Below, one piece after another: positions 23,831 to 58,349 of a DNA stretch of 64,000 nt (position 1 is the first letter of the stretch; each line of letters begins with the position of its first letter). A program made the position numbers and the translations under genes. The notes under the pieces are model-generated. The model did no database searches. It was not told the DNA's origin and saw only the letters and a list, made by a program, of their open reading frames with translations. Origin of the DNA: Hybos culiciformis (Eukaryota > Arthropoda > Insecta > Diptera > Hybotidae); NCBI GenBank assembly GCA_964007475.1, contig OZ023273.1:744001-808000 (forward strand), read 5' to 3'.

Positions 23831-25266
23831 TTACAGCTTTATTAAAAATTTCCTCCTAAGCGATGTAATTTTCGTCTTTCTGGAACAAACTTTGCAAAAT
23901 TTTTGATTAAATTTTTGTGATTGATCATCACATTTTTGTTCGCACACATCACTGACATTTGTTTGACAACCTTTTTTACAGAACTCTTCACTAATTTCGA
24001 TGTCATCAGGTGAATTGCATTTTTCTTCACAGATTTCCTCAGGAAAGACATTACACCTGTTTGTGCAAAAAACATAATTTTCATTAAATTCAAATTTATC
24101 TTTGGCACATTTTGATTCACATAGATCGAATTGAAATTCATAACAATTATGTTCGCAATATTCATAATTTTGTAGAAAATTTATGGTTGTATTACAATTT
24201 TTATTACATAAATTTCGAACTATTCCCTTGCAGCCCTTCAGACAAAAATATCGATATCCCCTATAGTATCTAGCCTCTCCGCATTTGTCATCGCATATTT
24301 CTTTCGGATACTCATTGCAATACAAAAAACATAAATCTCTATTTTTCCTTAAAATGTCATCATAAGTGTTGCACTTTTCTTTACAAATTCTGGGCCCCAA
24401 GCCATCGCAAAATCTTTGACAATAATCAAAATTCAGAACAAGGTCACTATTTGATCGGCATTCATTTTTACATAAATCAGCACTCAAGTGATCACAATTA
24501 TATTTGCAAAATAATTTATTTGTTAAATAAATGTCAGTTCGACTACATTCTTTCGGACAAACCGTGGACTTTTTATCGCAATTATCATTACAAAATTGAT
24601 CAAAATAATTAGAAATAGAGCTACAATTTCTTTCGCAATCTGCTTCAGGCAGTCCTTGAACTGGATTGTCACTATAATTTGGACTAACGCTAACAATGCA
24701 TTTTAACGATAATAAAATTTGAATCTGAAATGTTTGAAATTTTAAACCGTGAATTTTTTGTAGTAGGTATGTATATAAAAATATAAATTATTTACTTTAA
24801 TATACATATATATTTTTTATTTCTATTTTTAGTTGTTATATTAAAAGTTTTTATTTCGAATGCATATCGTATATGGTTACATGCAATTACGAAATCCATT
24901 ATAGTTTGAATAAATTTCATTTGTCCCAAATTAAACTGATCCCTATCTTTATTTTAAAAAAACAAGCTATACCAATTATTTACTTAATTAAAAAATGCTT
25001 ATTAAAATATTTGTACAATGTTTAAGTATTTATTTTCTAATTCCAATTGAAAGTACGACTTTACGTTATTTTTAAAGGAACAAATTATAATTTTTTATAT
25101 ATTTTTTTCATTCTTAATGTTTACCAATATTACATATTGAAAAATATTTCTCATTAATAATGAAAGTTGTTTAATTGTTAGTATAATAGGCACTTATTTA
25201 TTATAATTATTCTATTTTTTATTTATTTACCAAATTTAATTTTACTATTTTTGATGTCAGAGTCAT
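23831..25266 (-). CDS. P1: secreted tandem CX3C-hairpin protein
   Basis: Two exons. Exon 1 (25266-25231) encodes MTLTSKIVKLNL up to a GTAAAT donor; exon 2 (24724-23831) follows the acceptor tttcag and continues phase 0 with IQILLSLKCIVSVS, completing a signal peptide. The mature protein has nine units of C-x3-C-x10-14-C-x3-C separated by 6-7 residues (CERNC..CNDNC through CEQKC..CKVC), about 35 cysteines. It is probably secreted and disulfide-rich, with no catalytic motif. A start at the internal MSADLCKNEC would cut off the signal peptide and two units, so I reject it. The C-terminus ends in a basic tail and lacks the SCLG tail of its paralogues. Function unknown. Confidence 0.85.
24725..25230 (-). 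other. P1 signal-peptide intron
   Basis: A 506-bp GT-AG intron (GTAAAT donor, tttcag acceptor) separating the short first exon from the large exon. No other feature seen. Confidence 0.75.
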
Positions 25267-25804
25267 GTTTGTAACTCTTAAAAGAAATTTATTGGACTAA
25301 ATTCAATAATAATTTTTTTTTCATTTTTATACTTCTTTACCAAATTTATGCAAGACTTAACTGTTTCAAGGCTTTTACATTTTTTTTTTGATAAAGATGT
25401 AAATCTATATATTATAAATAAAATATATATTAATTATATGCACAATCAATTAATTATAATGACAAAGATGAGGCCTAAATATAACAAAACTATATAAAAT
25501 GAAGAGATTTGCTTAAATCAAGATTAGTTGGTATTTAATTTTATAATTTTAAAACATTGAATATTAGTTCGGATAAAATGATTAGAGAATATTTTTTGTT
25601 ATTTTCTACCACATTTTCTACAAATAAGACTTAAGCGCTTATACAAATAATAATAAAAAAAATTCAATAATTACTTTCTTAATCTACGCCTTAATTTTTT
25701 ATCCAATGAATTTAACAGAATAATTTAATATATGAGGCAAGTAATTCAGTTTTAAAATATCGTCTACATGTTACTTTAAGATTTGATTTCCGGAAAACTA
25801 AAAT

Positions 25805-26677
25805 TTAGAAATAATAGTCGCATCTTTTAAGACAAGATTCCCTTAAAAAAGTTCTACAGCCTCTATTGCAAAAATCTTCATTTCTTTGATAATTAATTCC
25901 GCATTTTTTTTTACATACACCATCAGGATAAGGGTAGCAGTTTCTTGAACAAAAATTATTATTTAAGCTGAATTCTAAACTATCCAGGCAGATTTGATCG
26001 CAGAATTGCACCTTAAATTGATAACAATTTGTCTCACAGAAAACATTATTTTTTAAAAAAATATCAACATTGTTACAGTTTGTATTGCACAATATATCTG
26101 TTGGCTGCTCAATTACATTATTTTGTTCCAATCTTTTGTCTTGTACATTTCCACATAGTGAATTGCAAACAGCAAAGTTTTTTATCAAACCACTACAGTC
26201 AGCTTGGCATAGTGTTGTTATTAAATAATTGCAATTTTTGATACAAAAAAAATTATAAAAACAAAATTTCTCAGCCGTATTGCATTGTGTGGAACACAAA
26301 AGTTGTTTATCACAATTATCATTACAGAATTGGGTCAGATAATCATTAATAGTGCTGCAATTGCTTGAACAATCGATGAATTTATCATTTGGATTCTCAT
26401 AAAAATATGGATTTTGAGATGAAACACAATCCAATAAAAAACCAATACCAAGCTAGAATTATTTAATAAATATACACTTGAAAATAATAAATTACCAAAA
26501 AGTTTTATACATCTTCGTTAAACACAAACGTAATTAAGGTTAGATTAAATACTTTTCTTTTAAAAAAAATTAAAATTGTAGCTCCACGCTAAGAATTTTA
26601 ATCCTGTCTTAAACTAAAAGTTCCAATTTCATTTTAATATCAATTTTGTTTATATTTTTTACCAAAATTTTATTCAT
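25805..26677 (-). CDS. P2: shorter paralogue of the CX3C-hairpin family, truncated last unit
   Basis: Exon 1 (26677-26663) reads MNKIL to a GTAAAA donor; exon 2 (26452-25805) follows attctag with LGIGFLLDCVSSQNP, together a good signal peptide. Six full units are visible plus half a unit: the protein stops at CLKRCDYYF, so the final hairpin has only its first CX3C. Between units 3 and 4 there is an unusually long 21-residue linker rich in Asn, Gln and Glu (near QDKRLEQNNVIEQP). It could be a functional divergent copy or an early pseudogene; there is no frameshift. Confidence 0.78.
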
Positions 26678-27023
26678 AATTGAATCGAATGCTTCATTCC
26701 AATCCACTCACTCTCTGATACTGAGATAATACCAAAAAATGAATTCCTTTTATATTTCATTAAAACAATTTGTTTAACTCAATATATTTCAGTTTAAAAT
26801 GAGATTTCAATTAACACATTATTTTTAAAATAAAAAATAAAACAGGAAACAAACAAATCATATGACTTTTTACGATCTATTAAAAATTCATTTAATTTCA
26901 TATTTTTAATATTAATTGTATTTTGTGTAAGTTAGATTTAAAAAAAAAAATCTAAAACAAATTCTGTCCGAAAATAATATAAGTTTCGCATTATAGTCAA
27001 TTTTTGATTCCATAGAACTTTTG

Positions 27024-27029
<6 letters not shown>

Positions 27030-27061
<32 letters not shown>

Positions 27062-27191
27062 CAACACACACACTTAATTCAAGTGAGACAAATTTGAAAA
27101 ATGACACAAATTCCAGTCCGAGGTGGGAATCGAACCTACGACCGAACACGCCGTAGGATAATGGCAATACCACTACACCATGACGGCCGAC
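27030..27191 (-). mobile_element. tRNA-derived SINE
   Basis: Minus-strand reading gives a tRNA-like head with A box TGGTGTAGTGGTA and B box GGTTCGATTCC at the correct spacing, a short unrelated body (CAAATTTGTCTCACTTGAATT), and a GTGTGTGTTG plus homopolymer tail at 27030-27070. The head cannot form a normal acceptor stem, so this is a retroposon and not a working tRNA. Confidence 0.85.
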
Positions 27192-27927
27192 AAATTTTTT
27201 GTTCTAAATTTTAATGAGAAGGCTTAAATTTTACTTCTAGTTCGTTTTAATTGAAGAAAAGCATGTGGACAAAGGAACAAAAACATGTCTAAGAACATTT
27301 AAACGTGTGAACATTGTACGTGCACATACATTATACATATTACGTGAATACAAAGGTCAACATAAAAACTATAAAAAAATTTGAAAATCATAATAAAATG
27401 TATTTCCGACAATACCGAACATTCACATCTTTAACTATTCTTCTATCAGAGACAAGAGTTAAGATAAAGTGGACATTAGGTAGAGATTTAGTTAATTGGT
27501 AACGCTGTAACTAAAATCTTTCAAAATCTTTCTTAAAAATTACAAAAAAACTTTCTTCATAACAGTACCTTTTCTTGTGTTTTTGAAAATAAAAAATGAC
27601 TATTTTTGTAGAATCATATATTTTTAATTATTTTCGCTAATTTCAAAGATAATTAATTAATATTAATATGTACCATGTACATGAAACATAATAACATAAT
27701 ACGAATTTTAGTTATATTCAAATAAATGCGCAATTTAGATATAATGAAAATAACATTTCATTAAAATAGAAAAACATAAATTAGATTCTTCAAATTTCCT
27801 TTATTTGTACAATGCAAAACTTTTTTTTTTATTTATGTTTTAACATAAAAACCAACAAGACATGAACTTATTCATTACTATAATTGTATATTGTTGTTCG
27901 TTTCTGGACTTGTTTGATTTCAGTTTT

Positions 27928-28973
27928 TTAACCAAGAAGTGATCCTATTGCCTTTGCGTGTATGTAATAAATAGGCGGTGGAATTGTTGCACAGAATGAA
28001 CAAAAGCTAGAATTATTTAACTTTTCATCTGATTCTTGATTACATTTACTGCCACACCAATGGCAAAATTCCCTCGAAAAAACATCACAATATTTGATGC
28101 AATAATCATAATTCAATACGAATTCAGATTTTGTACTTAGACATTTTTCGGTACATAAATTATGTTTTTCTTTAACGCAAATTGTCCCACAAAAATCATT
28201 ATTTTTTAAGAAAACTTCAAGGCTACTGCAATGGTCAGTACACAAGTTAGCAACCTGTTAGACACAAATGAGAGTTGTTTTTAAAAATTTCTAATTTATT
28301 ACAATCGAAAAAACATCACAATATTTGATGCAATAATCATAATTCAATACGAATTCAGATTTTGTACTTAGACATTTTTCGGTACATAAATTATATTTTT
28401 CTTTAACGCAAATTGTCCCACAAAAATCATTATTTTTTAAGAAAACTTCAAGGCTACTGCAATGGTCAGTACACAAGTTAGCAACCTGTTAGACACAAAT
28501 GAGAGTTGTTTTTAAAAATTTCTAATTTATTACAATGAGCACACTTTATCGGGGAATTCTTTACAATAATAAAAACAGATGTTTGGATTAATCTTTGAAA
28601 TATCTTCGACAGAGTTACAGTTTTCTTTGCAAACATGTAAAGGTAAATCCTTACAATAATTTTTGCAATAAAATAATTTTTCAATCAAATCATTTGTCGA
28701 ATTACATTCATTTTCACACAATTCAAAAGTTAAATGGTCACAATTTTGATTACAATATTGACCATTTGATGAAAATTTTGTAGCATTGCTGCATTCTATT
28801 GGACACAATTCTGATTTATGATCACATTTTGTGTCACAAATTGCACTGTTAGAATAATAGTCGGAAATTGTTCCACAAAATTTCTGACAATTTAATTCTC
28901 CTACATATGAATTTTTAGTATGGGTATCATCACTTATAATACATTTTGTTAGTGAAAAAATCACAATTTGTAT
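27928..28973 (-). pseudogene. P3: frameshifted copy of the CX3C-hairpin family with internal 231-bp duplication
   Basis: The 5' part (28973-28530) follows a ttcag acceptor with IQIVIFSLTKCIISDD and about four hairpin units, then stops at FPDKVCSL. The unit pattern continues in a second frame (KCAHCNKLEIFKNN..CLTGC) and then in a third frame (VANLCTDHC onward, both in 28291-28476 and in 27928-28245). That needs at least two small deletions. A direct 231-bp duplication (28075-28305 and 28306-28536) adds a second copy of the penultimate units. The C-terminal tail ends SLLG where paralogues have SCLG. No convincing first exon is found upstream. Assembly error at the duplication is possible, but the frame breaks lie partly outside it. 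Confidence 0.75.
28075..28536. repeat. 231-bp direct tandem duplication
   Basis: Copy 1 is 28075-28305 and copy 2 is 28306-28536. I see a single difference (AAATTATGTTTTTC versus AAATTATATTTTTC). Both begin CGAAAAAACATCAC and end TCTAATTTATTACAAT. It is either very recent or an assembly artefact. Confidence 0.92.
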
Positions 28974-29982
28974 CTGAAACATGAATTTTATTAATAAACA
29001 AATTTTAGAACATCAGGTTTACTTAATGACTGTTATTTAAATCAAACATTCTGCTAAAAGGTTTCTCACAAAACAAATAGGTAATATAATGATGTTTAAA
29101 TTAAGGTTTCTGATTTTCAATGCATAAGTTGTTACGAATACATGGTAGTATTAAAACATAATTAATTAAAATTGTAAATCTAGAACACTATGTTTTCTAC
29201 CTGCTGTTCCGATTCAAAGTTTTTAAAATTTTTTTTGAAATGAGTACTATTCAATGTTTCCTGAAGAAATTTTCTTACAAAAAAAAGGTTCTATTTGACG
29301 CATAAATACTATAAGAAATTCGTTATCGTGTTGAAAACGGTACAATGCAGATTTTGGTTAAAATTGAATTTTGGCAGAATACAAAATCCAGAATTTTTCA
29401 AATAATTGATGTTTTACTACAATTAGAATACAACACCTTTTTTTATTTAGTTTTCTATCATATCACAATCAATGTTTCAATCTACATAATGCATATTTCA
29501 ATGTACATAATGCTGTTCAATCTCAATGCATTATCTGTACTTCTTTTATAATCATCTGCAACTTTATAATTATCCCTAGTTTGTCAGACCTTTAATATTA
29601 TATTACCTTCAGATTTTTCAATGGAATTATTAAAATAACAGATTTATTGTACATTTAGTGCGCTAATATTTATAGTCCGTAACATATAAGTACATAACAC
29701 TATGAATACATAATATTGGTGTACTTGATTACAATTTTATTAATTCGTAAATTTTTTTGAGTTGTATACAAAAAAATATTTCTTTTTATGGATTTTGTTG
29801 TAAAGTATTTATCAAATTTTTTTCGGGTGCCAACACCATAAAAGTGCATTACATTTTTTGTAAATGAAAGTAATAAGTCTAACAATTAGTGGTCGATAAT
29901 CGATATATATATATATATATATTTTTATTCCAATCTTATAAGCACAAAAATATAATTTAGTGAAAATATTAGAATTAATAAA

Positions 29983-31099
29983 TTAACCTAAACAAGATAA
30001 AACACATTTGCCTCCAATACTTAATATGTGTGGTGGAAGGTTTCGACATGCTGTACAAAAGTTTTTGTAAGAATCTTCAATGGCCACATTTTTGGGGCAT
30101 TTTGAGTAGCATGATTCGTCAACATAAATTCTACATCCTTTGACACACAAATTCAAATTGATTGTTATATTCTCAGGTGTATTACACTTTTCCTTACAAA
30201 CATCTGAATTGAATGCATTGCAATTATCAATGCAAAAATCAAAATTTAAATCAAACTGAGATTTGCTAGAAATACATTTCTCACACCATAACTTATATTC
30301 AAGCTCAATGCATTGAGTTCTACAGAAATTAACATTATTCAAATAATCTGTGGATGTATTACAATTTAAATTACACAAATTTAGTAAATAAACTTTGCAA
30401 CCGCCATAACAGAAATCAATATTTTTTAGGTAGTTTTCAATTGTATCACATTTTGGCGTACAGATTTCGTCTGGGTATTTTTTACAGTAAGCAGTACATA
30501 ATTCTGTTGATTTTTTATAATCATCAACAGTTTTACAATTATCTCTGCAGATATTTCTTCTTAATGGATAACAGTTGGAGCTGGAACATAAATCTACATT
30601 AGCAATCAAATCTTCGTGTGAAGAGCATTGGGTTTGACATGAATTTTCATTGGAATTCTCAGCACAAACACCAATTGCTAATAAGATAACAGATACGAGT
30701 TGAACCTAAAATTTTATTTTATGGTAAAATATTTAATTGAACAATTAGCGAGTATAGTTACGTCTTTCAAAATTCTGTGAGAAAAATGAACATGAACTAC
30801 AAATAACTAAGATTTAAGAGTATTCTTAAAAAAAACAAAGCATTCATTATAAAAGTACATATTATGTAAATATAGGTTATATAAATATGATATAAAAATT
30901 ACTCGAAAAAAAATTAAAAATTTTTTATCGTACTTTTTTCTTTTTCCTTGATTCACGTGAATTTATGAATGAATTTCTTTAAAATTTGTCTTAAAACAAC
31001 GCCTAAAAATTTTATTTTATTCAGCAGAATTTCTTAAACTTAATTGATATTTATATTATTTACCAAATTAATTTTAATTCTTTTTGTTGAAGAGCTCAT
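29983..31099 (-). CDS. P4: secreted tandem CX3C-hairpin protein, seven units
   Basis: Exon 1 (31099-31064) encodes MSSSTKRIKINL to GTAAAT; exon 2 (30705-29983) follows ttttag with VQLVSVILLAIGVCAENS, giving a textbook signal peptide ending in an Ala-x-Ala-like C-A-E site. Seven units run from CQTQC to CTAC, then the conserved tail NLPPH and a final CVLSCLG before the stop. The unit 1 second motif is CX4C and unit 5 has CX2C. It is a recent tandem duplicate of P5 (same first-exon layout, similar downstream sequence). Function unknown; extracellular and disulfide-rich by inference. Confidence 0.87.
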
Positions 31100-31894
31100 G
31101 ATGTGAACGCAGCGACAAGAAATATTATACTAAACTTGTTTTTAGACATTGATTTGATTTTTTGTTTCTTAATTTGTTCCAAAGCAGAATTAAATTTAAC
31201 GCATATGTGCTGTCTTTTGCAATTTAGAGAATTGTACGATGCGATGTATATTGCGATGAAATGTGTTTGTTATATTATGATGATAATTCTTAATTATTTT
31301 CTGATGCAAGAACAAGAACTCTGTATAAATACAATAATACGTTATAGAATTATGAAAACGGTGCGCTAGTCTCTAACACTACATTCAAGAAAAAATATTA
31401 TCAGATTTATGCACAATGTTATAATACATACATACGTATCGAATTAATAAATAATTACTATTTCATCCTGGAATAAAAGGGAAAATATGAAGTGCGTTGA
31501 ATAATATGGGATTTTTGTGCTTTATGTATTTTTACTTTCTTTTTATTGTGATTTTTTTTTAATTCGTTCACAAACATTTTCAAATGTCTCAAACCATTAA
31601 AATGATCCCAACTATGTTCACCACACTTAAAATTGCTTCTTTCTTCGGAGATATAAACGTGGTGAATTTTAGTCTACTGTCCTGTTAAAAAAAATAGTTA
31701 AATGGATTTGCTATAAAAATTTTATCAAATTTAACTAGTTTTTTGTAAATAAATTAGAATTTTTTTCTGTGTTAACACTATAAAATGGAATACATTTTTT
31801 TGTAAATGAAAATAAAAAGTGCAATAATTAGGTATTGATATGTATATTTATTTTTCTTTCTTATAAACACAAAATTTAAATTTTGGGAGACAAA

Positions 31895-33303
31895 TCAACC
31901 TAAGCAAGATAAAACACATTTGGTTCCTATACTGTATACGTGTGGTGGAAGATTTCCACATGCTGTACAAAAATTTTTGTAATAATCTTCGATATCGACA
32001 TTTTTGGGACATTTATGGTAGCATAAATCATCAAAATAACTTCTACATCCTTGTGCACACAAATCAAAATTGGATGTTATATTCTCAGGTGTAATACACT
32101 TTTCCTTACAAACCTCTGGACTGAATGCTTTGCAATTACCAATGCAAAACTCAGAGTTTAAATTAAACTCAGATTTGCTAGAATAATAACATTTGCCACA
32201 CCATAACGCATATTCAAGCTCAATACAATGAGATCTACAAAACTTAACATTATTCAAATAATCTGTGGATGAATTACAATTCAATGTACATAAATTTTTT
32301 AAATGAACTGTGCAACCGCCATAACAGAAATCCTTATTTTTTAGGTAGTTTTTAATTGTATCACATTTCGGCAAGCAGATTTCGTCTAGATGTTTCTTAC
32401 AGTAAGTAGTACATAATTGTGTTGAATTTGTATAATCGTCAACAGTTTTGCAATTACCTCTGCAGACATTTTTGCTTAGTGGATAACAGTTGGAGCTGGA
32501 ACATAAATCTACATTAGCAATCAAATCTTCGTGCGAAGAGCATTGGGTTTGACATGATTTTCCTCTGGAGTTCTTAGCACAAACACTTAATGAGATAACA
32601 GACAAGAGTTGAATCTAAAATTTAGTTTTATAGTAAAATGAGCAGTTGAGTGATTAATGAATAGCGTGTTTTCAAAAATTCTGAGAGAATAATAAACAAA
32701 AGGTTAATAATTACATTAAACCATAGATTAAGAATACACCAAGATGGGAAGTTTCATACAACATTTTTTCAGTCTTTTTTGGTATTTTATTGTGAAGGTT
32801 TTAGTAAAATTAAATAAAATTCTTTTCATACATTGATAATTATCACGTATTTTATTTTGTTTTACTAACACATTGACTTAAAAATACCAAAAATAATGTT
32901 GTATGAAGCTTGCCATCTTGGTGTATTCTTAATCTATGATTAAACTTAATCTGTAGTGCTTCTTCTAATAAAAAAATATACTTAACAAAAATAAGTATTC
33001 TGCATGTATTTTGCTAGTGTAATTTAATGTGAACCATAAATTAAATTGACAAAATACCTGTGGAATATTTTAATTCTAAAAAATATTTCAGGAGAAGCAT
33101 TATTATTTTTCTTATCTCCTAATTTACTCGACTTTAGGAGTGAGCCACCAACTAAATAAATACTAAATGTTTAAAGCAAGGAAGATTTTTCTTAAAAAGA
33201 AATAATTTTCATTAGGTTTTTTTCAGCAGAATTTCCAAAATTTATTGATATTTTATTTATTATTTACCAAATATATTATTATTGTTTTTGTTGAAAAGTT
33301 CAT
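31895..33303 (-). CDS. P5: secreted tandem CX3C-hairpin protein, closest paralogue of P4
   Basis: Exon 1 (33303-33268) encodes MNFSTKTIIIYL to GTAAAT; exon 2 (32614-31895) follows tttag with IQLLSVISLSVCAKNS. Seven units correspond one to one with P4, including the CX4C in unit 1 and CX2C in unit 5, and the tail NLPPH..CVLSCLG is conserved. The intron carries a foldback MITE (32721-32939). High similarity to P4 in both exons and 3' flank points to a fairly recent duplication. Function unknown. Confidence 0.87.
32721..32939. mobile_element. foldback MITE, family CCATAGATT, copy 3, in the P5 intron
   Basis: A 219-bp palindromic element, CCATAGATTAAGAATACACC to GGTGTATTCTTAATCTATGA, flanked by TTAAA on both sides (32716-32720, 32940-32944). 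It shares the arm and centre sequences of the copies at 15300 and 19502. Confidence 0.9.
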
Positions 33304-33589
33304 GATATAAACACTACGACGAGATAGGTTAAACTAAATAAACTTATTTATCTTGAATTGATTTGCGTAATTTGTTTTAAAACCGGATTAAAATGAAAGC
33401 GGTACACACAGCATAGTTTCTTGCAGTTTAAATAATTCAGAAATTCAGCTACATATTTGGGATTAAAAAAGTGTATAACAATTATGACCATATATCGACA
33501 TTTTAATAAAATTAAACTAAATAAATAAATAAGATGTTACATATTAAGTTAAAACAAGCTTCTGGTTTATTTTTCGATAAATCTTAAAT

Positions 33590-34050
33590 CCGACAAATTG
33601 TACATTGTGATTTGGGGAATTTAGTTTTAAAAACAGTTTACAACTATTTGAATGTTTTAAAATTATTAATAAAATTTCTATTGAATTGCATTTATGAGTT
33701 GTGCCATAATGGACTAAAGCCCTGTTGTTGCATACAGCTGAAACTGAAATTGAAACTGAAACTGAAACTGGTACATTGCTTTTCACATCCGTAAATAATT
33801 TTTTTTGCCGATTTTGACGTTTGTGTCTGTCATTCAGTATTGAAACAAGTCAAAACAAGTTCTTGCAGTTTCAGTTGAGTTTCTGTAAAGGATTGAATTC
33901 CATAATTCAGTTTCTGTTTCAGTTGCTAATGTACTGAGTTCAGTTTCAGGTTCAGCTGTAAGCGACAGCAGGGCTTAACTGTTTTACAATTATATCTGCA
34001 AACTTTTATCCATGATGGGTACCAATTTGGAACTACATCAAAAATTTGTG
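33590..34050 (-). pseudogene. decayed P4/P5-like gene fragment split by a MITE
   Basis: At 33979-34050 the minus strand reads VCRYNCKTV preceded by NWYPS, matching the P4 segment ICRDNCKTV preceded by NCYPL; nucleotide similarity to P4 around 30530-30600 is clear. Left of an inserted 258-bp element, 33600-33700 reads HKCNSIEILL, like PKCDTIENYL in P4. Only about two units survive, with lost cysteines and stops, so this is a third, dead member of the P4/P5 group. Confidence 0.68.
33718..33975. mobile_element. MITE with AGCCCTG ends and TAA duplication
   Basis: TIRs AGCCCTGTTGTTGCATACAG and, reading the other strand, AGCCCTGCTGTCGCTTACAG, both followed by CTGAANCTGAA. It is flanked by TAA on both sides (33715-33717 and 33976-33978). 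A 3-bp TAA duplication fits PIF/Harbinger-like elements. It includes a (GAAACT)n microsatellite at 33740-33770 and further CAGTTTC repeats near the right arm. Confidence 0.75.
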
Positions 34051-36381: not shown

Positions 36382-36581
36382 NNNNNNNNNNNNNNNNNNN
36401 NNNNNNNNNNNNNNNNNNNNNNNNNNNNNNNNNNNNNNNNNNNNNNNNNNNNNNNNNNNNNNNNNNNNNNNNNNNNNNNNNNNNNNNNNNNNNNNNNNNN
36501 NNNNNNNNNNNNNNNNNNNNNNNNNNNNNNNNNNNNNNNNNNNNNNNNNNNNNNNNNNNNNNNNNNNNNNNNNNNNNNNNN
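36382..36581. other. assembly gap of 200 N
   Basis: Exactly 200 undetermined bases, probably a fixed-size placeholder. It removes the 3' part of P6. Open frames reported across it are meaningless within the N run. Confidence 0.99.
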
Positions 36582-38117
36582 CATTTTATTCATATCAAAT
36601 TCATTCATATTCCAAAAAAATTCACAAAAATCAAAATACAATGCAATATCTGTTGTTGTATTGCAATATTTTCCATAAAGCTCTGTTCTAATTTTCTCAC
36701 ATTTGCTGTTACAATAATTGAAATTGCTCAGAAAACTATAAATTGAGTTGCATGAAGAAGAGCATAGTTGTGCCTTATAATCACAAAAGTCCTCACAGAA
36801 ATCTGTATTATTAAAATATGAATTCACATTGCCACACTTGTTTGTACATTCAGAGGAAAAATATATATTACAAGTAGAACTACAAAATTTCTGATTTCGT
36901 ATATAATCATCGGTTGTGCGGCAACTTGATTCACACTTATTGCCAATACGATGACTGCACCTTAAAATACAAAATTCCTCTGCATCAAATGATTCAATTT
37001 CACTGCAATCAGTTTCACACTGTTGACTTTGCAAATTGTAACAGATTTTTTCGCAATCAGTTACAGATACTTCAGTTGCAATGAATCCACTTTCCTCAGA
37101 AGGAAGATAACATTTATCCAAGCACGTTTGTAGAAATTCTAATTTATTTTCAGATGTTTGTCCCAATATTTCTAATGTATTAAACACGATTGTGTATAAG
37201 ATTATCTAAAAAATATTTAACTATAACTTATTACCTCATTCTAGAAAAGGGTGCCTTTATTATACTTCGTTTCAAAATATGTATTATTAGCTGTACTAAA
37301 TTATTAGTCGTTTTCTTTAAACTATATTATATCTAATCGTAATATTGGTTATTGTGTTATGAAAAGAACTCTTAAAATTGGTCCAAAATTTTCATACATT
37401 TTTTAGTTAAATTTGTCAATCACAGCATCTCATGGAACGGTCATGAGATATTTTTTTTGAAAGTATATGTCCTGAATGTGATAGTGTTGGGTTTTTAGAT
37501 TGATCAGTGAAGGAGTTTATGGAGAGGTGTTTTTTTCAAATTTGTATAGAAAATTAATTTTAGCAATTTTCTCACTAACTTTTATCAAAAACCGCCCACA
37601 GTACGATCTCGAAATTCTTTTCCTGAAAACTTATGTATATTACATAAAACATAAAAATTGTTCATCTCAAACAAAAAACAAAAAAATTAGAAACAATCTA
37701 TCGACTAATTTCGAGTGTTCTGAAAAATAGAACATCAGAAACTTCTTCTAAGAGTGGGTTTTGTAAAAAAGGAATATGAATTCCACTTTTCAGAACATAC
37801 TCGAAATTAGCCGACAGATTGTGTATATTTTTTTTTATTATAATATTGGCAGTTTTTTGTTTCTGAGCCTTAACTCCTAATATCCTAGATCACGGCGATG
37901 GATAAAAATTGCATAGTAGTATGTATTATGGAAATTATGTACAATTTTCTAATTTCCACTATAAAGAAAACTAAAAATAATAATAAACAGAAATAATCAA
38001 TTTTTTTAATATGAACTTGAAAGCAAAAAAAAAACTATTTTATTAATTATGTTATTAAAAAATAAAAATTTAAACGCAATGAAAATAAATTTTATTTACC
38101 AAAAATAATTTTAACAT
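36582..38117 (-). CDS. P6: CX3C-hairpin protein, C-terminus lost in the gap
   Basis: Exon 1 (38117-38100) encodes MLKLFL to GTAAAT; exon 2 starts at 37205 after tttttag with IILYTIVFNTLEILGQ. Six units are visible. The first has a long 17-residue linker (CLDKC to CEKIC). The sixth reads YGKYC..CEFFW, so its outer cysteines are both replaced while the inner pair is kept. The frame runs into the gap after MNEFDMNK; whether the short open stretch left of the gap (RCFIYRIFQ and stop, 36330-36381) belongs to it cannot be decided. Possibly intact, possibly degenerate. Confidence 0.75.
37640..37835. repeat. inverted repeat around CTAATTTCGAGT
   Basis: ACAATCTATCGACTAATTTC (37690 region) is mirrored at 37800-37830 by GAAATTAGCCGACAGATTGT, with TGTTCTGAAAA on the inner side of both arms. 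It lies in the P6 signal-peptide intron and is probably a small foldback MITE. Confidence 0.7.
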
Positions 38118-38895
38118 TATGATGCTGACTGTAGATTCAGCTAACAAGAATACCGACAACTTAATATTTTTTATTTACAATTTGCATCTGCTTTTATATG
38201 TTAAGATTTTCTGTTTTTTTTTTATCTGCTGCAGAGCCTTAACCTTTTTGCAATATTTTTTCAGTGTGACAAGCTGGGAAATAAATATCAACTACACATA
38301 AATTTTTTTTTAGCTATTTCTTACAAGTATGCAATACAATGTACATTATAATGTTAAATAAAAGTATATGTACTATCAAAAAATGTGCATACTAAAACAT
38401 ATTCGCAGAAAGAATTCAAATGTAAGTAAAATATTTTAAATTGTGAATCTTTTTAGAGAACTGAGAATTAATTGTTTTCTTTCGATTTGTGCGTGTAGAT
38501 GCTAAATCGATTAAATGCAGTAAAGAAAATAATTTTTTAAATAATATTATAAGTTAAACAGAAATATACTAAGCACAATTTATAACTAAAATTTATCTCT
38601 TGTTTAGCAACTCAGTGTTATTTGATTATTAAGATAATTATTTAAGCCATAATTTTTGGGGTTTCTGTCAGCTGTTGTGAAAAGGTCGTATTTGATATGT
38701 AATTCGACAGTCAAAATATAAGATACGTATGTAGTTATTACAAGTCTAAGATTTTTTTTAAATTGATTTACAAAGTTCATTAAAAACAAAAAATATTGGT
38801 TTTATTTATTATTATTAGCAATAGTATAAAAAAAATTAATTTTACATTGCTAGTTATTGCTATTATGTAATAGTAGATTACAATACATTTTAAGA

Positions 38896-39050
38896 AAATT
38901 TGTTATTCTTGCGAGTTTTGTATACACACAAACACATAGACACGAGTCATGTTTATATCACGAGACCGAAGGTCGAGTGATATAATATTGACGAGTGTCT
39001 ATATGTTTGTGTGTATACAAAACGAGCTGTATAACAAATTTGATTAACAT
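38896..39050. mobile_element. foldback element with a 60-bp hairpin arm
   Basis: Left arm runs AAATTTGTTAT..GTTTTGTATACACACAAAC..TAGACACGAGTC; the right arm mirrors it as GACGAGTGTCTATATG..GTTTGTGTGTATACAAAAC..ATAACAAATTT. The centre CGAGACCGAAGGTCGAGTGA is itself partly palindromic. A weaker outer match (CAATACAT) extends both arms to about 38881 and 39060. Confidence 0.85.
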
Positions 39051-39207
39051 GTATTGTATACTGCTTTAATGTGCATGTGAGAGGGAGTTGAAAACAATAC
39101 ATTTATAATGAAAAAAATAAACAAAAAAGTTCAAAATGAAGCAAGGAAATAAAATTTAATAAGGAAGTTTATTTATTTATCGAAATGATTTCAAACCGGA
39201 AGATTCC

Positions 39208-39336
39208 TAAAATATTAAAAAAAAAATTAGTAATTTTTCCAAAAAAAAATTATTCATTTTCTTTTTTGCAAAAAAAAAAATCGAATAATTTTTTTTTAGA
39301 AAAATTACTAATTTTTTTTTTATTATTTTAGGAAAT
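39208..39336. repeat. AT-rich inverted repeat
   Basis: TTAGTAATTTTTCC (about 39226) and GAAAAATTACTAA (about 39299) with surrounding A/T runs and TTCCTAAAAT/ATTTTAGGAA outer ends form a long stem. It is probably an AT-rich MITE. Confidence 0.6.
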
Positions 39337-40044
39337 AATGGTCTTCTTAAATTTTACTTAATTTTATTTTTAATTATTAAAAAAAATAATAATAATTTTA
39401 TAATTATTTTTTTTATAATTAAAAATAAAATCAAATAATAATTATATAATTATAATTTATATTTACAATAAATAATCTCCTTGATGCTGCCATTTTCTTT
39501 GTTTGTTGATAGAAGAAAAAAAAATTCTTACTTGACATTTGACAATCACAGCAAACTTTATAATGACAACAAATATATTTTCAGGGTTACCATTGTTCTA
39601 TTTTTATTCATTTTGTTTTTTTGAATAAAAATAAGTCCAATTTTTGAAGTGTGGTTTAAATTTTTGTACTAAAATCCAACCACACTCGTTTAAAAATTTA
39701 GTAGTAGAGGTTCGAAGATCCTTTAAAAATAGTAGATTGAAACACATGTTAAGAAAATTCATCGACTGATCGACTGGCCGCTTTTTAGAAAAAAAAAAAA
39801 TAGCCGCGTATTTTTTTATTGGTTCTTTTTTTTTTTTTTGTTTGCTCAGAGGGAAAATATAGATTAGCTCAGAGGGAAAATTTAGATTTTAGCATTATAA
39901 ACTAAGCTTTGATTGACATTGATATGATGCATGTGAGAGGTATACATTTGCAATTTTTTTTTTTTTTTGGTATTTGTCTGTATTGAAATATTGTGAGTGT
40001 GAGTGATATTATTTTTGTTTATAGTATTACGCAGTTGAAAATGA

Positions 40045-40195
40045 AGAATGTAAATACAATATAGAGCAATGTAAATACAATTTACATCACAGGGAAATGT
40101 AAATACAATTTACATTCCTCTATAATTGCATGTGTATTGATGCATGTAATGGACCATTTACCGAGCTAAATTTGCGAATGTAAATACAACTTACC
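40045..40195. repeat. dispersed copies of AATGTAAATACAATTTACA
   Basis: The motif AATGTAAATACAA occurs four times (near 40047, 40068, 40095 and 40178), twice as part of the palindrome TGTAAATACAATTTACA. It lies just downstream of gene X. Confidence 0.75.
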
Positions 40196-40318
40196 GAAGA
40201 CATGCGCATTAAAATTATATACATTTAAACTTACAATTATAATTATATTTCTGCCCAATTTTTTTTAAACGTCGCAAGACCGTAGGACGAATTTCTTTTA
40301 TCTACTCTGAAAAAAGTA

Positions 40319-41200
40319 TTACCCAAGACAAGATAAAAGACCTTTATTACAAAGGGCTTCTCTTGGCGGAGGTGCTGAATAGCATATTTGACAAAATTCA
40401 GTTTCCGTAGGAATGTTAGGATCACAATGTTCAAAACAGTGTTTAGCAGCAGTTTGCCTACAACCTCTGAAGCAAAAGGATGAATTTTTTTTAATATTTT
40501 CTGGAGCATTACAATATTCATTGCAAACTTCATCTTCCAAATGGTAGCACCGATAAGCACAAAATTCATAATTTTGGTCGAAACTTCCTTTTGTGTTACA
40601 ACTTTTCTGGCACACGCTTTCAGTTAGATGTGGACATGATCTGAGACAGTAGTTTTTGTTTACCAAGAAATTTTCAACAGTGTTGCACTTATCATCACAA
40701 AATTTAAATATTGTATAAAAGCAGCCTTTATCACAGAATTCTGTATTATTTGAAAATTGTTCAAAATTTAAACATTTTGCATTACAAACATCTTTTGGAA
40801 ATTTATAGCAATACAAATAGCAAACATTTTTATTTTCCAAAATTTCCTCAAGATTTTTACATCGTTCGCCACAAATTTCAAGTCCTCTACAATTGGCGAA
40901 ACAAAATTGATTATTGACGACCAAATCTGAATTAGATACACAATCATTAGGACAAATGTTTGATGCTAGATGATTACAGTTTTCTTTACAGTACCAATTA
41001 TTGTTATAAAAATTTTGAGCGTTGCTACAGTTTTGGTTGCATAAGTCAGCTTTCTGCAAACAGGAATTATCAATACAAAATTGTGCATTCTTGTAGTAAT
41101 TTTCGGAAGAATAACAAAAAGGGTCACAATCTTCTTTTGTTGCCGTGCTAAGAACTTCAATTATTAACATGTTTATTGTCACTGCTAATAAAATGTTAAG
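40319..41200 (-). CDS. X: CX3C-hairpin protein, nine units, best-preserved member
   Basis: The large exon starts at 41200 after tatttag with LNILLAVTINMLIIEVLSTA, the rest of a signal peptide, so a short first exon with the ATG must lie upstream; I could not identify it. The in-exon ATG (MLIIEV) would give a weaker signal. Nine units run from CDPFC to CQIC, followed by SAPPP and the tail GLLSCLG and stop at 40319. Most linkers are 12 residues. Unit 4 is entered by a short 5-residue spacer (RGLEI). A decayed duplicate of its 5' end sits at 44893-45063. Secreted, function unknown. Confidence 0.85.
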   Translation of the reverse strand, partial: LNILLAVTINMLIIEVLSTATKEDCDPFCYSSENYYKNAQFCIDNSCLQKADLCNQNCSNAQNFYNNNWYCKENCNHLASNICPNDCVSNSDLVVNNQFCFANCRGLEICGERCKNLEEILENKNVCYLYCYKFPKDVCNAKCLNFEQFSNNTEFCDKGCFYTIFKFCDDKCNTVENFLVNKNYCLRSCPHLTESVCQKSCNTKGSFDQNYEFCAYRCYHLEDEVCNEYCNAPENIKKNSSFCFRGCRQTAAKHCFEHCDPNIPTETEFCQICYSAPPPREALCNKGLLSCLG

Positions 41201-42660
41201 CTAAATATACAAAAGAATAACTTCATAGTTGGAAAAAAAAAGTATGTATATCTTTATTTTAGTTACTATTATTGTCCTTTTCATTTTTGAATTCATAATT
41301 GTGACTGTTTAACGTTAAAATAATAACTAAATTTTAATTCTATTTTTATATCGATATTTAAACAGTGAAAGAGCTTTTTATTATATAAATTTATTCATTA
41401 ACATTATTAACTTCGCTGCATAATACATATATTATAGAAAGTTGGCTTAACGTTATGAATTACATTTGACAGCGGGAAGTGTAGTTTCCAAATACAACCT
41501 TATTCGTTCTTTGGAATTGCTTGTGTAGCAATTTACTTCGCCACATTAACGGTCGAAGCAGAGAAGAAAAACGTATGTAAACTTAACATCATTCAAAATT
41601 AAATATCTGGTCTTTATAACATAGGCAGATATTCTTCTATTATGAAGAGTTTTAGGTCAAGCAGCTGGCGTTGTGACTGATAGTACGCAATATTAGGAAA
41701 AAAATAAGGATACAACATGTCAGTTGTACAATTACCAGTTGTAGTTTTTTTTTGGACCAGTGGTACAATCCAAAATACCAATTGTACAATGGAGAATTTA
41801 ATTGTACATCTCGTTTTTTGAATTGTACAAGTGGTAAAAAGAATCCACTTCTACAATTGACTACTTGTACGAAGGAAAACCTTTTGTATAGACTCTTAGG
41901 ACTTGTACAATTCAATTGTACATTTAAAACCAGTTGTACAATCTCAATTTTTTCGAATGAACCACTTATATAATTTTTGAACAGTTGTAAATCTCTTCTT
42001 TTTTTTTATTAAACACTTGTAAAATTTTTTGATCCCTAATATTAGGACTTAGGATGCAAATGCTTTTTCGCGTGTCCCTGCGGGGCTTCAGGGATTAAAA
42101 CCTCCCTGAAACTGGATTGTTTAAGTCCTAAACTTTTCTGTATAATTGGATAAACCGATTGTACAACTCGTCAATTGTACAACTGGACTATTTTTTAACA
42201 CTTTTTTTACAGATAAAAATACCGGTTGTACATTTTTTTCTCGAGATAAAAAGTAGGACTCACCTGAACATTAAATATTCTTAAACAATATTTAATAAAT
42301 TTTTTTAACAAGCTCGATTCTTTTAAATTTTTATTATTAAATAAATAATATGCTTTTACAATAATTAGAAAAAAAATACCTTATGGATTATTTCACTTAA
42401 TATAAGTTATTATCAAAATAACTTCGTTTTCCTAAGGTTAAAAATGTTGTTCAAACAATTTGTTTCAGATTCAAACAAACTCAATGTTATAGAGTTATAG
42501 ACTATAGTCTATAAAATTAATTTTTTAATTAATTTTTTATTAATATTGAATTATAAAATAAACATTTTGATATCATAATTAAAGCGAATACTTCAATTTG
42601 ATTTTTTTTGTGATACTTGTTTTTTGAAGTCAAAAACTTTACTAACTTAAGTTCGATATT
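41201..42660. other. X-Y1 spacer, duplicated at 45064-45909
   Basis: Similar to the spacer at 45064-45909 (for example TTACTATTATTGT, CTTAACGTTATGAATTACAT, AACATCATTCAAAATTAAAT in both). The extra length here is explained by an insert at about 41703-42268. No gene other than a possible hidden first exon of X. Confidence 0.7.
41703..42268. mobile_element. insert rich in TTGTACAA palindromes
   Basis: Absent from the paralogous spacer near 45525. It contains more than a dozen TTGTAC/GTACAA motifs in both orientations between 41715 and 42230, plus a less AT-rich block (TCCCTGCGGGGCTTCAGGGA) near 42078. Its ends are not precise. Probably a MITE with subterminal repeats. Confidence 0.6.
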
Positions 42661-43000
42661 TAGGTTTTTAGCCAACACATGATAAAAGTGCTTTCGAACA
42701 TATTGTAGATGTAGTTAGTATCTGAAATTGTTGCGGAGGTTTTTCAATAAATGATGTCCGAACTTTCTGACAAATTGCACAAAATTTTGGATCCTTTACC
42801 ATTTCAATTTCTTTTAAAAACATTGGTTTTGGACATTCTTCATTACATAAATCTTTTACGACGGAAGCACATTTACTTGAGCAGTATTCTGTAGTTGAAA
42901 TAACGTAATTTTTAGTTGAACATTCTTTCTCGCAAACATCATTTGGAACATTTTTACATAACAGAATACATAAATTGTAATTTTTAAAAAATAATTCTAA

Positions 43001-43952
43001 TGCCTTGTTCACACTTCGCTAATTTAACATGTTCGAAAGGAGTTAAACATCTTTGGAAAATCGACCGTTCAGACGATGTTTTTCGTATGTTAACATGTTT
43101 AGCTCTGTCAGATAAAAAATTTCAAATAATACCGGAGATAAGCTCAAAGGAACTGACGCGCCCAAAAAAGTTAAAATATATGAAGTTGTGTCAAGGTTAA
43201 GAACTCGCGCGTCATTTATCATGAGTGTATCTCCACCTTTAGAAAATTTTAAAGTCAAAAATGGCATACCAAGTAAAAATTAATGCATACTGAATATTGC
43301 CTAACAAAATATTATTCAAAAATTACTCATTCATCCCTGAAAATTAACATGTTTTTGTAGAAACATGTTAAAGAACGTGTTTCTGTTTTAATTTTTTTAC
43401 TATGAAAAAACACCATAAAAAACACCAACGGAACATGTTCGTTGTCCGAACATGTTAAATTAGCTAAGTGTTATGCCTTGGACAGACTGAACTCGAAAAA
43501 CATGTTCTTGAGCACAAAAACATGTTATTAAAATCGACCGAACAGACTACCTTTAATGTGTTTCACAAAACAGATAAACATCTGTTTTTTTTTTTCAAGT
43601 TTAAAAACAAAAGTAAACAATACAATATACCTACAAATTCAATTCAAATTCAAAATAAAAAACAATAACAAACTTTTTTTTCATTTGTTTACAAATGAAT
43701 ACGACATAAAATTGTCAAAGTCAACGTCAAAAATGATACCCCAGTGAACATTAATGGCTTCCAGATATTGCCTCACGAAATATTTGTAAAAATTACTCAA
43801 CCCATCCTTTAATAACAACATGTTTTGGCAAGAACATGTTCTTGTTCTTGTTTTTATTACTATGGGAAAACTACTTCAAAAACATAAAATTAACATGTTC
43901 TTGATCAAGAACATGTTAATCGTGTCAGTCTGTCCAAGGCATAAACAAGCTA
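43001..43952. mobile_element. PIF/Harbinger-like TIR element inserted in Y1, carrying a nested relative
   Basis: Left end TGCCTTGTTCACACTTCGC; right end, read on the other strand, TAGCTTGTTTAACACTTAGC. TAA flanks both sides (42998-43000 and 43953-43955). Removing the element and one TAA gives TTCTAAGTTGTTAC, matching TTCTACGTTATCAC in Y2, so the borders are set by an empty site. Internal GAACATGTT palindromes are abundant. No transposase frame. Confidence 0.85.
43474..43941. mobile_element. second, nested TIR element of the same broad family
   Basis: TGCCTTGGACAGACTGA at the left and, on the other strand, TGCCTTGGACAGACTGACAC at the right. It sits inside the right end of the outer element, whose terminal AACAAGC reappears directly after it. 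Internal order (TATTGCCT, AAAATTACTCA, CATCC, ACATGTTTT, ACTATG) parallels the outer element, so the two are diverged copies. Confidence 0.8.
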
Positions 43953-44892
43953 TAAGTTGTTACAATTCTTTTTACAATTAATAGCATTGATGTTTTGTAA
44001 ATGTTATCGCACACTGGATATTTTTCAAAATCTTTTGAGGTTTTACAATTATCTTCACAAACAATTCTATGCAATATTTCACATTTATTTGCACAAAACA
44101 AACTGTTCTTATGTAACTGTTCTGGACTACTACATTTGGAATCACAAACAAAATCTTTGTTTTCAGTACATTGTTCATTATAAAAGTCATGCAGTAAAAA
44201 TGTATCAACGGTTTCAGTATAATTGTCTGCACATAATTTTAGCTTCAGATTAGCGCCTCTTTCACCACAAATAGCTATGTTTTGCATAAATTTTATTGGT
44301 GTATTGCAAGTTTCGTTGCATTCTTCGAAATCCAATGAAATCGTTTTATTTTCACTGTATTGGGGATCACTACTTTCTTCAACATTTTCTCCATCAGTGG
44401 AATAAATTAATAAAATAATTAAAAAATAAATCTGAAAATCATTTTTATTATTTTAATTTTTATTATTGTTTTATTTGTATTTTATGTTACCACTTTTTTC
44501 CCCATAATATTCTTTATCTGCAAATGTTGAGTATAAGTTTAACTTTGATGGGCTCGAGAAGTTTTTAAAGCATTTTATAGAACAGCTTAAAAATATTATA
44601 AACTGGTTTCGGTATTACAAGTTAAACTGGTATAAGGCAGAACTTTATCATGATGACTTTGATTAGCATACTTTTTTGTTTATTTACGAATTTAAATTTG
44701 ATAATTATTACGTTTTCGCTTTTCTCTTGCTTTTTTCAACTGAATAATCAACATGAACATGTTTCTTACTTGTTTAGGTACTATATTTATTTTTAGAATT
44801 TAGTAGTTCAAGAGCTCAATCCTTTTTTTTGGAATATCACAAAGTTGATGAATTTCTATTATTTTATTTTTGCTTTTTAAATACAATTCCAT

Positions 44893-45063
44893 TTAGCGTT
44901 GCTAGTTTTGGTTGCAAAGAGGAATTATAAATATACAAAATTGTGCATTCTTGTAGTAATTTTTAGAAAAATAACAAAAAAGTTTGCAATCTTCTTTTGT
45001 TGTCGTATTAAGAATTTCAATTATTTAGTTGTTTGTTGTCACTGCCACTAAGCTCTTAAGCTA
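44893..45063 (-). pseudogene. X': 5' remnant of a duplicated gene X
   Basis: Matches the first part of the X large exon (41030-41200), for example CAAAATTGTGCATTCTTGTA and CAATCTTCTTTTGTTG, with substitutions, a deletion next to GTTGCTAGTTTTGGTTGC, and a stop in the signal-peptide region (TTTAGTTG). Nothing of the rest of X follows to the left of 44893. Confidence 0.8.
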
Positions 45064-45909
45064 AAAATCAAAAAGAAAAACTTCCGACACGACATAGTTG
45101 GAAAAAAACTTATGTCTATTTTTATTTTAGTTACTATTATTGTGCTTTTTTTTTAATTCATAATTGAGAACGTTTAAATAAAAATTCTGTTTTTATTTCG
45201 ATATTTAAACAAAGAGCTTTTTATTATTAATTTTTCATTAACATTATTAATTCCGCTGTATAATCATACTAGAAAGATAGCTTAACGTTATGAATTACAT
45301 TTGATATCGGGAGGTGTAGTATCCAAATATAACCTAATTCGTTCTATGGAATTGCTTGTGAAGCCATTTACTTCGCCAAATGAACGGTTCATGCATAGAA
45401 GGAAAACGTATGTAAACTTAACATCATTCAAAATTAAATATCTGGTCTTTATAACAAAGGCGGATATTCTTCTATTATGAAGAGTTTCTAGGTCACGCAG
45501 CTCGCGTTTTGACTGATAGTATGCAACAGGAGGAAGAAAATTAAATTTTCTAAAACAATATTTAATAAATTTTTTTTCACCTTTGTGAGTGATTTCAAAT
45601 ATTTACCTATTTTGAATTAATACATTATATTATGATTTAAATTTACCAGTTCTAATAATACTCCAAATTATGTAAAATAAAAATTATGATAAATTTAATG
45701 ATTTTATTATATTTTATATTTAATTAGTTCATTGAATTTCGACCAAAAAACGTCTGTGGTTAACTAAAAAATTTGCAGTAACAAGTTTGCAATTGCTATT
45801 TATTTAAAGTTTATTTAAATAGCTAATTCGAGGTACAAAATTAATATTCCTATAATGAGCTAGGCACATGTTCAATAAGAGCTCTTAATTTATTATGGAT
45901 GACATTATT

Positions 45910-46790
45910 TTAGCCAAGACATGATAATAGTGCTTTCGAACATATTTCAGATGTAGTTACTACGTGATGGTCTTTCGGAGGTTTTCCAATAAATCCTGTC
46001 CGAACTCTCTCACAAATTGCACAAAATTTTGGATCCTTTACTATTACTTCTTCTAAAAACATTGGTACTGGACATTCTTTATTACATAAACCTTTTACGC
46101 CGGCAACACATCCACTTGAGCAGAATTCTGTATTTAAAATAACTTCAGTTTTAGTTGAACAGCCTTTTTCGCAAACATCGTTTGGATAATTTTCACACAG
46201 CAGAATACATAAATTATAATTTTTAAAAAACGATTCTACGTTATCACATTGTTTTTTACAATTGTCAACATTGACGCTTTTGCAAAGGGTATTGCACATT
46301 GAATAATTTTCGAAATCATTTATGGTTTTGCAAGTATCTTCACAAACAATTTTATACAATCTTTCGCATTTACTTGTACAAAAGTAACTGTTGTTATGTA
46401 ACCCTTCTGGACTGCTACATTTGTAATCACACACAAAATCTTTGTTTTCAGTACATTTATTATTATAAAAGTCATGCAGTAAAAATGTATCAAGGGTTTC
46501 AGTATAATGGTCTGCACATAATTTTAGCTTCAGATTAGCGCATCTTTCATCACAAATAGCTATGTTTTGCATAAATTTTATTGGTGTATTGCAAGTTTCG
46601 GTGCATTCTTCGGAATCCAATGGAATCGTTTTATCTTCACTGTATTGGGGATCACTACTTTCTTCAACATTTTCTCCATCAGTGGAATAAATTAATAAAA
46701 TAATTAAAAAATAAATCTGAAAATCATTTTTATTATTTTAATTTTTATTATTGTTTTATTTGTATTTTATGTTACCACTTTTTTCCCCAT
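45910..46790 (-). CDS. Y2: CX3C-hairpin protein, intact partner of Y1
   Basis: Exon 1 (46790-46776) encodes MGKKV to a GTAACA donor; a 59-bp intron follows; exon 2 (46716-45910) starts after ttttcag with IYFLIILLIYSTDGENV, a strong signal peptide. An acidic Ser/Glu stretch precedes seven units (CTETC to CAIC). Unit 2 reads CADHY..YNNKC, so its two inner cysteines are both Tyr. The tail has KPPKDHH and SEICSKALLSCLG. All frames are clean. Starting at MDSEEC would drop the signal peptide. Secreted, function unknown. Confidence 0.86.
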
Positions 46791-57104: not shown

Positions 57105-57421
57105 ATATTTTATAGACGATAAAATTATAACAATTAAATTAATCGATAATGCATAAATTAATCGCATAATGCATATTGAATCTTTGAGTGATATAAATAA
57201 TTGTAATTTTATTGCTGAATCCCAAGAGTCAAATTTAAGTAACAAAGATTATAATGTTAGTTTAAATGGAAGTACATTGAACAGTTCGAGTACTCAAATT
57301 TCTAGGTGGTTTAGAAAAAATTATACTTTCGTTGTAGGAGATAGTCAGCAATTACCTCAGCTTTTACCAAAATTTAAACGGAGCTCATCAAATTATCGCA
57401 ATACAAAACCGGGGACAATAA
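57105..57421 (+). CDS. exon of the unidentified gene, contains in-frame stop
   Basis: Begins YFIDDKIITIKLIDNA then TAA; open again as INRIMHIESLSDINNCNFI and through FVVGDSQQLPQLLPKFKR to a GTAACC donor in phase 1. The sequence around the stop (GATAATGCATAAATTAATCG followed by CATAATGCAT) looks like a small local duplication that could have created the stop. Confidence 0.5.
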
Positions 57422-57482
57422 GTAACCGATATTTGAAGATATGGATTATTTGTTGACTTTTCAATATTTTTTTTTTATATAG

Positions 57483-57746
57483 ATATAACTGATCAGGAAA
57501 ACGATGGGAATTATTTGACATTATGTGAAACTTTAAAATCAGCAATAAATTCACAATCAATTCCTATTATGAATTTTACAATGAATCAGGAGTGTGATAC
57601 TTTTAAATCATGTGAACCATTTGCTATTGAATTAGTGTCAACAAATATTTGTATTTTGGGACAGCAAGAAAGTGATAGTTTTATTGGTTTGAGTCAGCAA
57701 TTACCTCCACTTGTGCCAGCTAACAGACAAGTTAAACAGAATCAAA
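57483..57746 (+). CDS. repeated exon B of the unidentified gene
   Basis: Starts phase 1 (NITDQENDGNYLTLCETL), contains SIPIMNFTMNQECDTFKSCE and GLSQQLPPLVPANRQ, and ends at a strong donor GTGAGC in phase 1. It resembles both the previous exon (SQQLPQLLP) and the next (ISIMN..DTFRSCE), showing exon duplication. Confidence 0.6.
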
Positions 57747-57810
57747 GTGAGCAGATTATAAAAATTCAGAAATAGTATAATTTTTAACTTAAATATCTTA
57801 TTTTTTAAAG

Positions 57811-58013
57811 ACATTATAAATCAAGAAGAGAATCAGCTCAGAGCTACGAAAATGATATCATGCAAAAATCTAACAATACCAAGAAATTCTGGATATATCT
57901 CTATTATGAATTCTCAGTTGAATGAAGACTTTGATACTTTTAGATCATGTGAAGCATTTGAAAATACAGATACAATAAAAACTAATCTATATTTTTTTTA
58001 CCATGAGATAAAT
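57811..58013 (+). CDS. repeated exon C of the unidentified gene
   Basis: Starts phase 1 (NIINQEENQLRATKMISC), contains YISIMNSQLNEDFDTFRSCE, and ends at the donor GTATGT after YHEIN. No following exon is recognised before the hAT MITE at 58350. Confidence 0.5.
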
Positions 58014-58349
58014 GTATGTACATTTTTGTTAAATTTAAAAAAAATAATTTTAACGAGAAAAACCATTTCACTTTTTATGGAAAACAATTCAAAAAATTTC
58101 ATTTATAATTTATACGTTTAAAAAAATTTTAATTTCTACGTATCAAGTAAGAAAAACGTTATTTTGCTGAAATTAAAATATTAGATTTATTGTATTTTTT
58201 TTTTATCAACGTAAAAATGTAAATGTCCAATTTTTAATTGAATTTATAAATTAAATTCGAATTATGGTGAATTCGGCTGTCTTTTTTCTGCAGCAATAAC
58301 ATTTTTGCATTTTTTTTTTTAATTTTGATAACAAGATATACGGTATATT

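Follow-up and report, generated by a model that had tools for sequence, protein, structure and literature searches.

Analysis of a 64,000-nucleotide window of the dance fly Hybos culiciformis (C1:744001-808000 of the 342.37-Mb assembly of 509 contigs) revealed a minus-strand cluster at 23.8-46.8 kb, comprising eight genes, some of them broken, along with relics, whose encoded proteins consist almost wholly of CX3C-X12-CX3C units in up to nine copies. In this species they probably form a family, restricted to its lineage, of secreted all-helical repeat proteins stapled by disulfides. A six-frame scan of the window identified 49 matches to CX3C-X8-16-CX3C, of which 48 lie at 23966-46605, every one on the minus strand, and the single match outside the cluster is at 19283. 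The repeat is far above chance, as 30 simulated first-order Markov windows gave a mean of 0.17 matches and a maximum of 1. A tandem, one-strand cluster of cysteine-hairpin repeat proteins had been described in an earlier, sequence-only reading of this DNA, in agreement with these counts.

The cysteine spacings follow the order 3-12-3-7, which together with the four cysteines (C1 to C4) gives a repeat period of 29 residues, instead of the 28 residues assigned previously. Beyond the cysteines, the consensus has aromatic or aliphatic residues at positions 11 and 17, Asn at position 14 (40/48 units), a conserved hydrophobic residue at position 25 (32/48) and an aliphatic residue at position 29 (40/48). 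With the C-terminal cap unit counted, P1 and X contain nine units and P4 seven, as claimed earlier. The seven units given for P5 fit its cysteine spacings, which equal those of P4 except for one residue, and Y2 reaches seven only if the cap and a degenerate unit lacking two cysteines are both counted. Cysteine makes up 11-14% of the residues, and the isoelectric point (pI) of six sequences ranges from 4.7 to 7.7, with basic residues about as numerous as acidic ones or outnumbered by them. The GC content of the window is 24.7%, next to 25, 24.5 and 24% given for three chromosomes in the genome note of this fly.

An AlphaFold2 model of mature X, computed from 10 family rows, is all-helical with a mean predicted local distance difference test score (pLDDT) of 86.6 and a predicted template modelling score (pTM) of 0.64, and a two-unit piece modelled from 40 rows yields a pLDDT of 85.9 and a pTM of 0.66. 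The two-unit set comprises 40 of 41 pieces, one irregular P3 pair being left out, and the family alignment (A2) leaves out Y1. In both models each unit is composed of a helix bearing C1 and C2, a helix of six residues and another, of seven, bearing C3 and C4; as expected, helices are predicted on both sides of the loop of each unit. Among the eight linkers of the X model four are wholly helical, one is helical in five of six residues and three in part. Positions 25 and 29 share one face of the helix through the linker with C1 and C5. Because five of the eight linkers are wholly or mostly helical, the model suggests that the units are stacked rather than loose beads; the earlier picture of a bead array is less well supported. 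Two natural double-cysteine losses, of C2 and C3 in one Y2 unit and of C1 and C4 in one X0 unit, are suggestive of C1-C4 and C2-C3 bonds within the unit.

An AG acceptor precedes the large exon in all eight genes, and in seven of the eight a candidate first exon was found that is 5-12 codons long and has a phase-0 GT donor. The phase-0 candidate intron falls inside the putative signal peptide. The candidate first exons of P1, P4, P5 and X0 have the donor GTAAATAA in common, and that of X is backed by an identical donor in a copy at C1:134.32 Mb. Once the exons are joined, the N-termini resemble signal peptides by eye, which accords with the secreted character proposed for these proteins before.

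The order of the units was compared among P1, P4, X, the contig C2 gene and the second contig C3 frame described below, with near-duplicates, irregular copies and broken copies left out. Units with the same index, counted from the C-terminus, score 52.7 on average against each other, compared with 37.6 for units of different index (permutation p 0.0005), and units within one gene score 38.0. Since the units keep their index between paralogues, the array is older than the gene copies. It is whole genes, not units, that multiplied and broke, and the rapid change in unit number suggested in the sequence-only reading was not supported. None of the unit cysteine codons has changed between P4 and P5 (0/30), between X and its 134-Mb copy (0/36) or between X0 and its 28-Mb copy (0/14). 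The ratio of nonsynonymous to synonymous substitution rates (dN/dS) is 0.58, 0.35 and 0.34 for the three pairs, respectively. The unchanged cysteines together with these ratios indicate that at least these copies have been kept as coding genes. Within the P4/P5 pair, dN/dS is 0.96 at surface sites and 0.31 in the core. The values of 1.45 for Y1/Y2 (four synonymous changes) and 0.98 for R1/Y2 involve broken copies and are not taken as positive selection.

The genome was queried with four family proteins, namely P1, P5, X and the sequence from C3. Locus counts are lower bounds, and distant members of the Y type may have escaped these queries. Outside the window, the queries located four further loci of the family. 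Contig C1 carries an intact X copy, 91% identical, at 134.32 Mb and relics of X and X0 at 28.36 Mb. The noncoding DNA around X and X0 is duplicated along with them at 134 and 28 Mb, indicating segmental duplications. At C2:105.85 Mb, one 291-residue family frame (L005 1462-2334) is encoded on the strand opposite to a farnesol-dehydrogenase-like gene, between two of its exons. At C3:40.77 Mb, two adjacent frames (L054 5355-6782) hold about 12 units together and may belong to a single gene that has an additional intron. A further match on C4 (E 4e-4) was considered spurious, as no cysteine-rich frame is listed there.

No relative was found in the databases searched. A word-based search of 5.77 billion proteins with X alone gave 102 candidates, none at E 0.001, and a profile of eight family sequences gave 1,852 candidates, none at E 0.1; this search requires common five-residue words, and distant relatives may escape it. 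The positive control, a conserved enzyme, yielded 120 listed matches that are flies where named, showing fly coverage rather than sensitivity for this family, and agreeing, like the dance-fly source itself, with the insect-like genome recognized from the sequence. A rough tree of this enzyme places it beside Condylostylus; these results told against an aphid parasitoid or an aphid as the source, both of which the low GC content had suggested. Eight stretches compared with viral contigs had no relative there. No Pfam model reached its cut-off in the eight proteins scanned. The nearest is Stig1 (PF04885), at 23.3 bits against a cut-off of 24.1 for one 61-residue X0 piece, with 17.5 bits for whole X0 and matches to 4 of 40 two-unit pieces at E up to 10. 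The trypsin-inhibitor-like (TIL) model matches 21 of the 40 pieces within an E limit of 10, the lowest value being 0.052 (8.2 bits against 24.5 for one piece), zf-Tim10_DDP matches one (E 7.4), and Antimicrobial21 scores 9.2 and 10.1 bits against a cut-off of 27. The unit profile, run on PDB sequences with an E limit of 10, matches only PIT54 (E 0.069), and a PDB fold search listed no match, alpha-hairpinins included, though a likeness of fold could still exist. The earlier remark that no named insect family is known to have this layout is consistent with the Pfam, PDB and protein searches run.

Comparison with known systems shows likeness in motif and plan. The twin CX3C motif of the fly unit is also that of the small Tim chaperones, which are mitochondrial and have one motif per protein, whereas the fly proteins are repeat arrays. 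STIG1 proteins are likewise cysteine-rich and secreted, but they are a plant family, below whose Pfam cut-off the fly proteins score. The CX3C-Xn-CX3C motif of plant alpha-hairpinins is found in the fly units as well. In alpha-hairpinins, C1-C4 and C2-C3 bonds bridge two helices; in the fly unit the helices are modelled, and such bonds are suggested by the two double losses. The tandem alpha-hairpinin precursors Sm-AMP-X and Tk-AMP-X are described as a signal peptide, 5-12 modules with linkers and a short C-terminal part (PMC7191063), and as described there they resemble the fly proteins in having several modules per secreted precursor and little or no intron. The fly proteins differ in lacking a sequence match and indicated processing sites and in their animal host, and their units differ in being modelled as stacked, in a third short helix and in conservation by position. 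In scorpion kappa-KTx toxins (CS-alpha-alpha), two helices are reported to be joined by two disulfides (PMC11722136), but these and other two-helix toxins are single short peptides, unlike the fly arrays of seven to nine units. The fly array looks like a case of convergence with the plant type-2 alpha-hairpinin precursors and the scorpion CS-alpha-alpha fold. The Hairpin Loop Peptides of fungi and insects, described in 2026 as secreted, with two helices and mirrored cysteines, form one hairpin of about 85 residues with six cysteines and three nested bonds, in contrast to the four cysteines per 29-residue unit and seven to nine units of the fly proteins (PMC13357843).

We propose the following architecture for these proteins. 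Each 29-residue unit would consist of three helices, the first with C1 and C2, the second (helix B) short and the third (helix C) with C3 and C4, and the C1-C4 and C2-C3 bonds that we infer would clip its two sides together. The first helix of the next unit would start in the linker, so that the units probably stack into a stiff rod whose end is closed by the cap unit. Selection would hold the core and the cysteines and leave the outer residues freer. A conserved core under a freer surface is well suited to a scaffold for binding or protection, and our best guess is a stiff secreted rod that binds or protects. According to the genome note, adults and larvae of Hybos culiciformis are predators, so saliva is a reasonable place to start looking; predatory robber flies likewise have novel secreted families, the asilidins. 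A use on prey, as part of the saliva or venom, is possible, if doubtful. The immune, venom and salivary roles put forward in the sequence-only reading are likewise conjectural. Our tentative full reading, slightly better placed, is an extracellular all-helical solenoid evolved in dance flies, each repeat stapled by two disulfides, that may serve as a stable multi-site binding rod, possibly in predatory saliva.

Several points weigh against this proposal. The pTM is moderate, three of the eight X linkers are helical only in part, and pLDDT falls below 50 for the last 12 residues of the X model. The bond pairing and the stacking are inferred. Single cysteine losses occur too, but in broken copies (Y1 and the 28-Mb relic), and P2 has an extra cysteine and irregular units. 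Surface sites of the X pair are constrained, at a dN/dS of 0.46. Secretion, tissue and use on prey are putative. None of the ten cysteine patterns tabulated for the asilidins of robber-fly venom consists of CX3C-X12-CX3C repeats (PMC5793116).

Two other functions appear rather unlikely, to an equal degree. One is structural, in a secreted material (larval silk, glue, eggshell or gut lining) of which the stapled rod would be a tough block. The cysteine-rich composition and rod-like repeat are in its favour, and fast gene turnover is common in families of structural secretions, but no low-complexity or cross-linking motif was seen. The other is a reproductive or immune protein, in seminal fluid or haemolymph, whose binding target keeps changing. 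It agrees with the tandem duplication, the broken copies and the near-neutral surface sites of P4/P5, and not with the constrained surface of the X pair. A precursor cut into single antimicrobial or toxic hairpin peptides, like the alpha-hairpinin precursors of chickweed and wheat, seems improbable despite an overall plan (signal peptide, 5-12 tandem modules) like that reported for the plant precursors (PMC7191063). Of 65 linkers, 4 contain a dibasic site, where composition alone would predict about 8%, and no RxxR is present. Such sites therefore give no indication that single peptides are released there, although other proteases are possible. Half of the X linkers are modelled as wholly helical, the position-wise conservation of units is not needed by free peptides, and the near-neutral or acidic pI and charge balance speak against a membrane-lytic peptide. 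A metal-binding cysteine-rich helical protein like the ascidian vanabins is most improbable, as the Vanabin-2 Pfam score (2/40 two-unit pieces, best E 0.021) lies below usual significance and the cysteines come in fours that fit internal bonding.

Table 1. Family genes, broken copies and relics in the cluster (window coordinates)
Feature	Position	Strand	Remarks
P1 candidate exon 1	25231..25266	-	12 codons, donor GTAAATAA
P1 exon 2	23831..24724	-	nine units including cap, 297 codons + stop; lacks the final two cysteines present in X and P4
P2 candidate exon 1	26663..26677	-	5 codons
P2 exon 2	25805..26452	-	irregular units, one extra cysteine, early end within cap
P3	27928..28973	-	units over three frames; no convincing exon 1
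P4 candidate exon 1	31064..31099	-	12 codons, donor GTAAATAA
P4 exon 2	29983..30705	-	seven units including cap
P5 candidate exon 1	33268..33303	-	12 codons, donor GTAAATAA
P5 exon 2	31895..32614	-	tandem duplicate of P4; 180/238 residues identical
X0 candidate exon 1	38100..38117	-	6 codons, donor GTAAATAA
X0 exon 2	36582..37205	-	runs into 200-N gap 36382-36581; last unit without C1 and C4
X candidate exon 1	41267..41296	-	donor GTAACTAA, also in C1:134.32 Mb copy
X exon 2	40319..41200	-	nine units including cap, 293 codons + stop
R1	42671..43018	-	3' half of Y-type gene; upstream end cut by inserted DNA
Y1	43928..44431	-	5' half of Y-type gene; frame lost at insert
Relic between Y1 and Y2	44913..45541	-	resembles upstream region and start of X
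Y2 candidate exon 1	46776..46790	-	5 codons
Y2 exon 2	45910..46716	-	six regular or cap units + one degenerate unit without C2 and C3

In P3 a 231-bp stretch is repeated exactly and in tandem (28074-28304, then 28305-28535), and P3 could be a broken gene or an assembly fault. An insert of about 0.9 kb (43019-43960) seems to have split one Y-type gene into Y1 and R1; it carries inverted repeats and looks like a DNA transposon or a miniature inverted-repeat transposable element (MITE). Elsewhere in the window, exons of an M1 aminopeptidase with Peptidase_M1 and M1_N domains lie on the minus strand at 19-2362, and a 103-bp unit forms a tandem array of 5.8 copies at 6568-7174. Three adjacent plus-strand frames at 57157-58121 share similar D-F-[KR]-S-C-E phrases with no Pfam model above cut-off, and are perhaps repeated exons of one gene.

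Short toxins and defence peptides of plants are already known to include helical hairpins with two disulfides. In an animal, a long ordered array of such hairpins, with no database relative and a confident model, would mean either that the plant tandem layout was invented again independently or that a stable scaffold of a new kind exists. The genome note presents Hybos culiciformis as the first hybotid genome, and little work has been done on what small predatory flies secrete.

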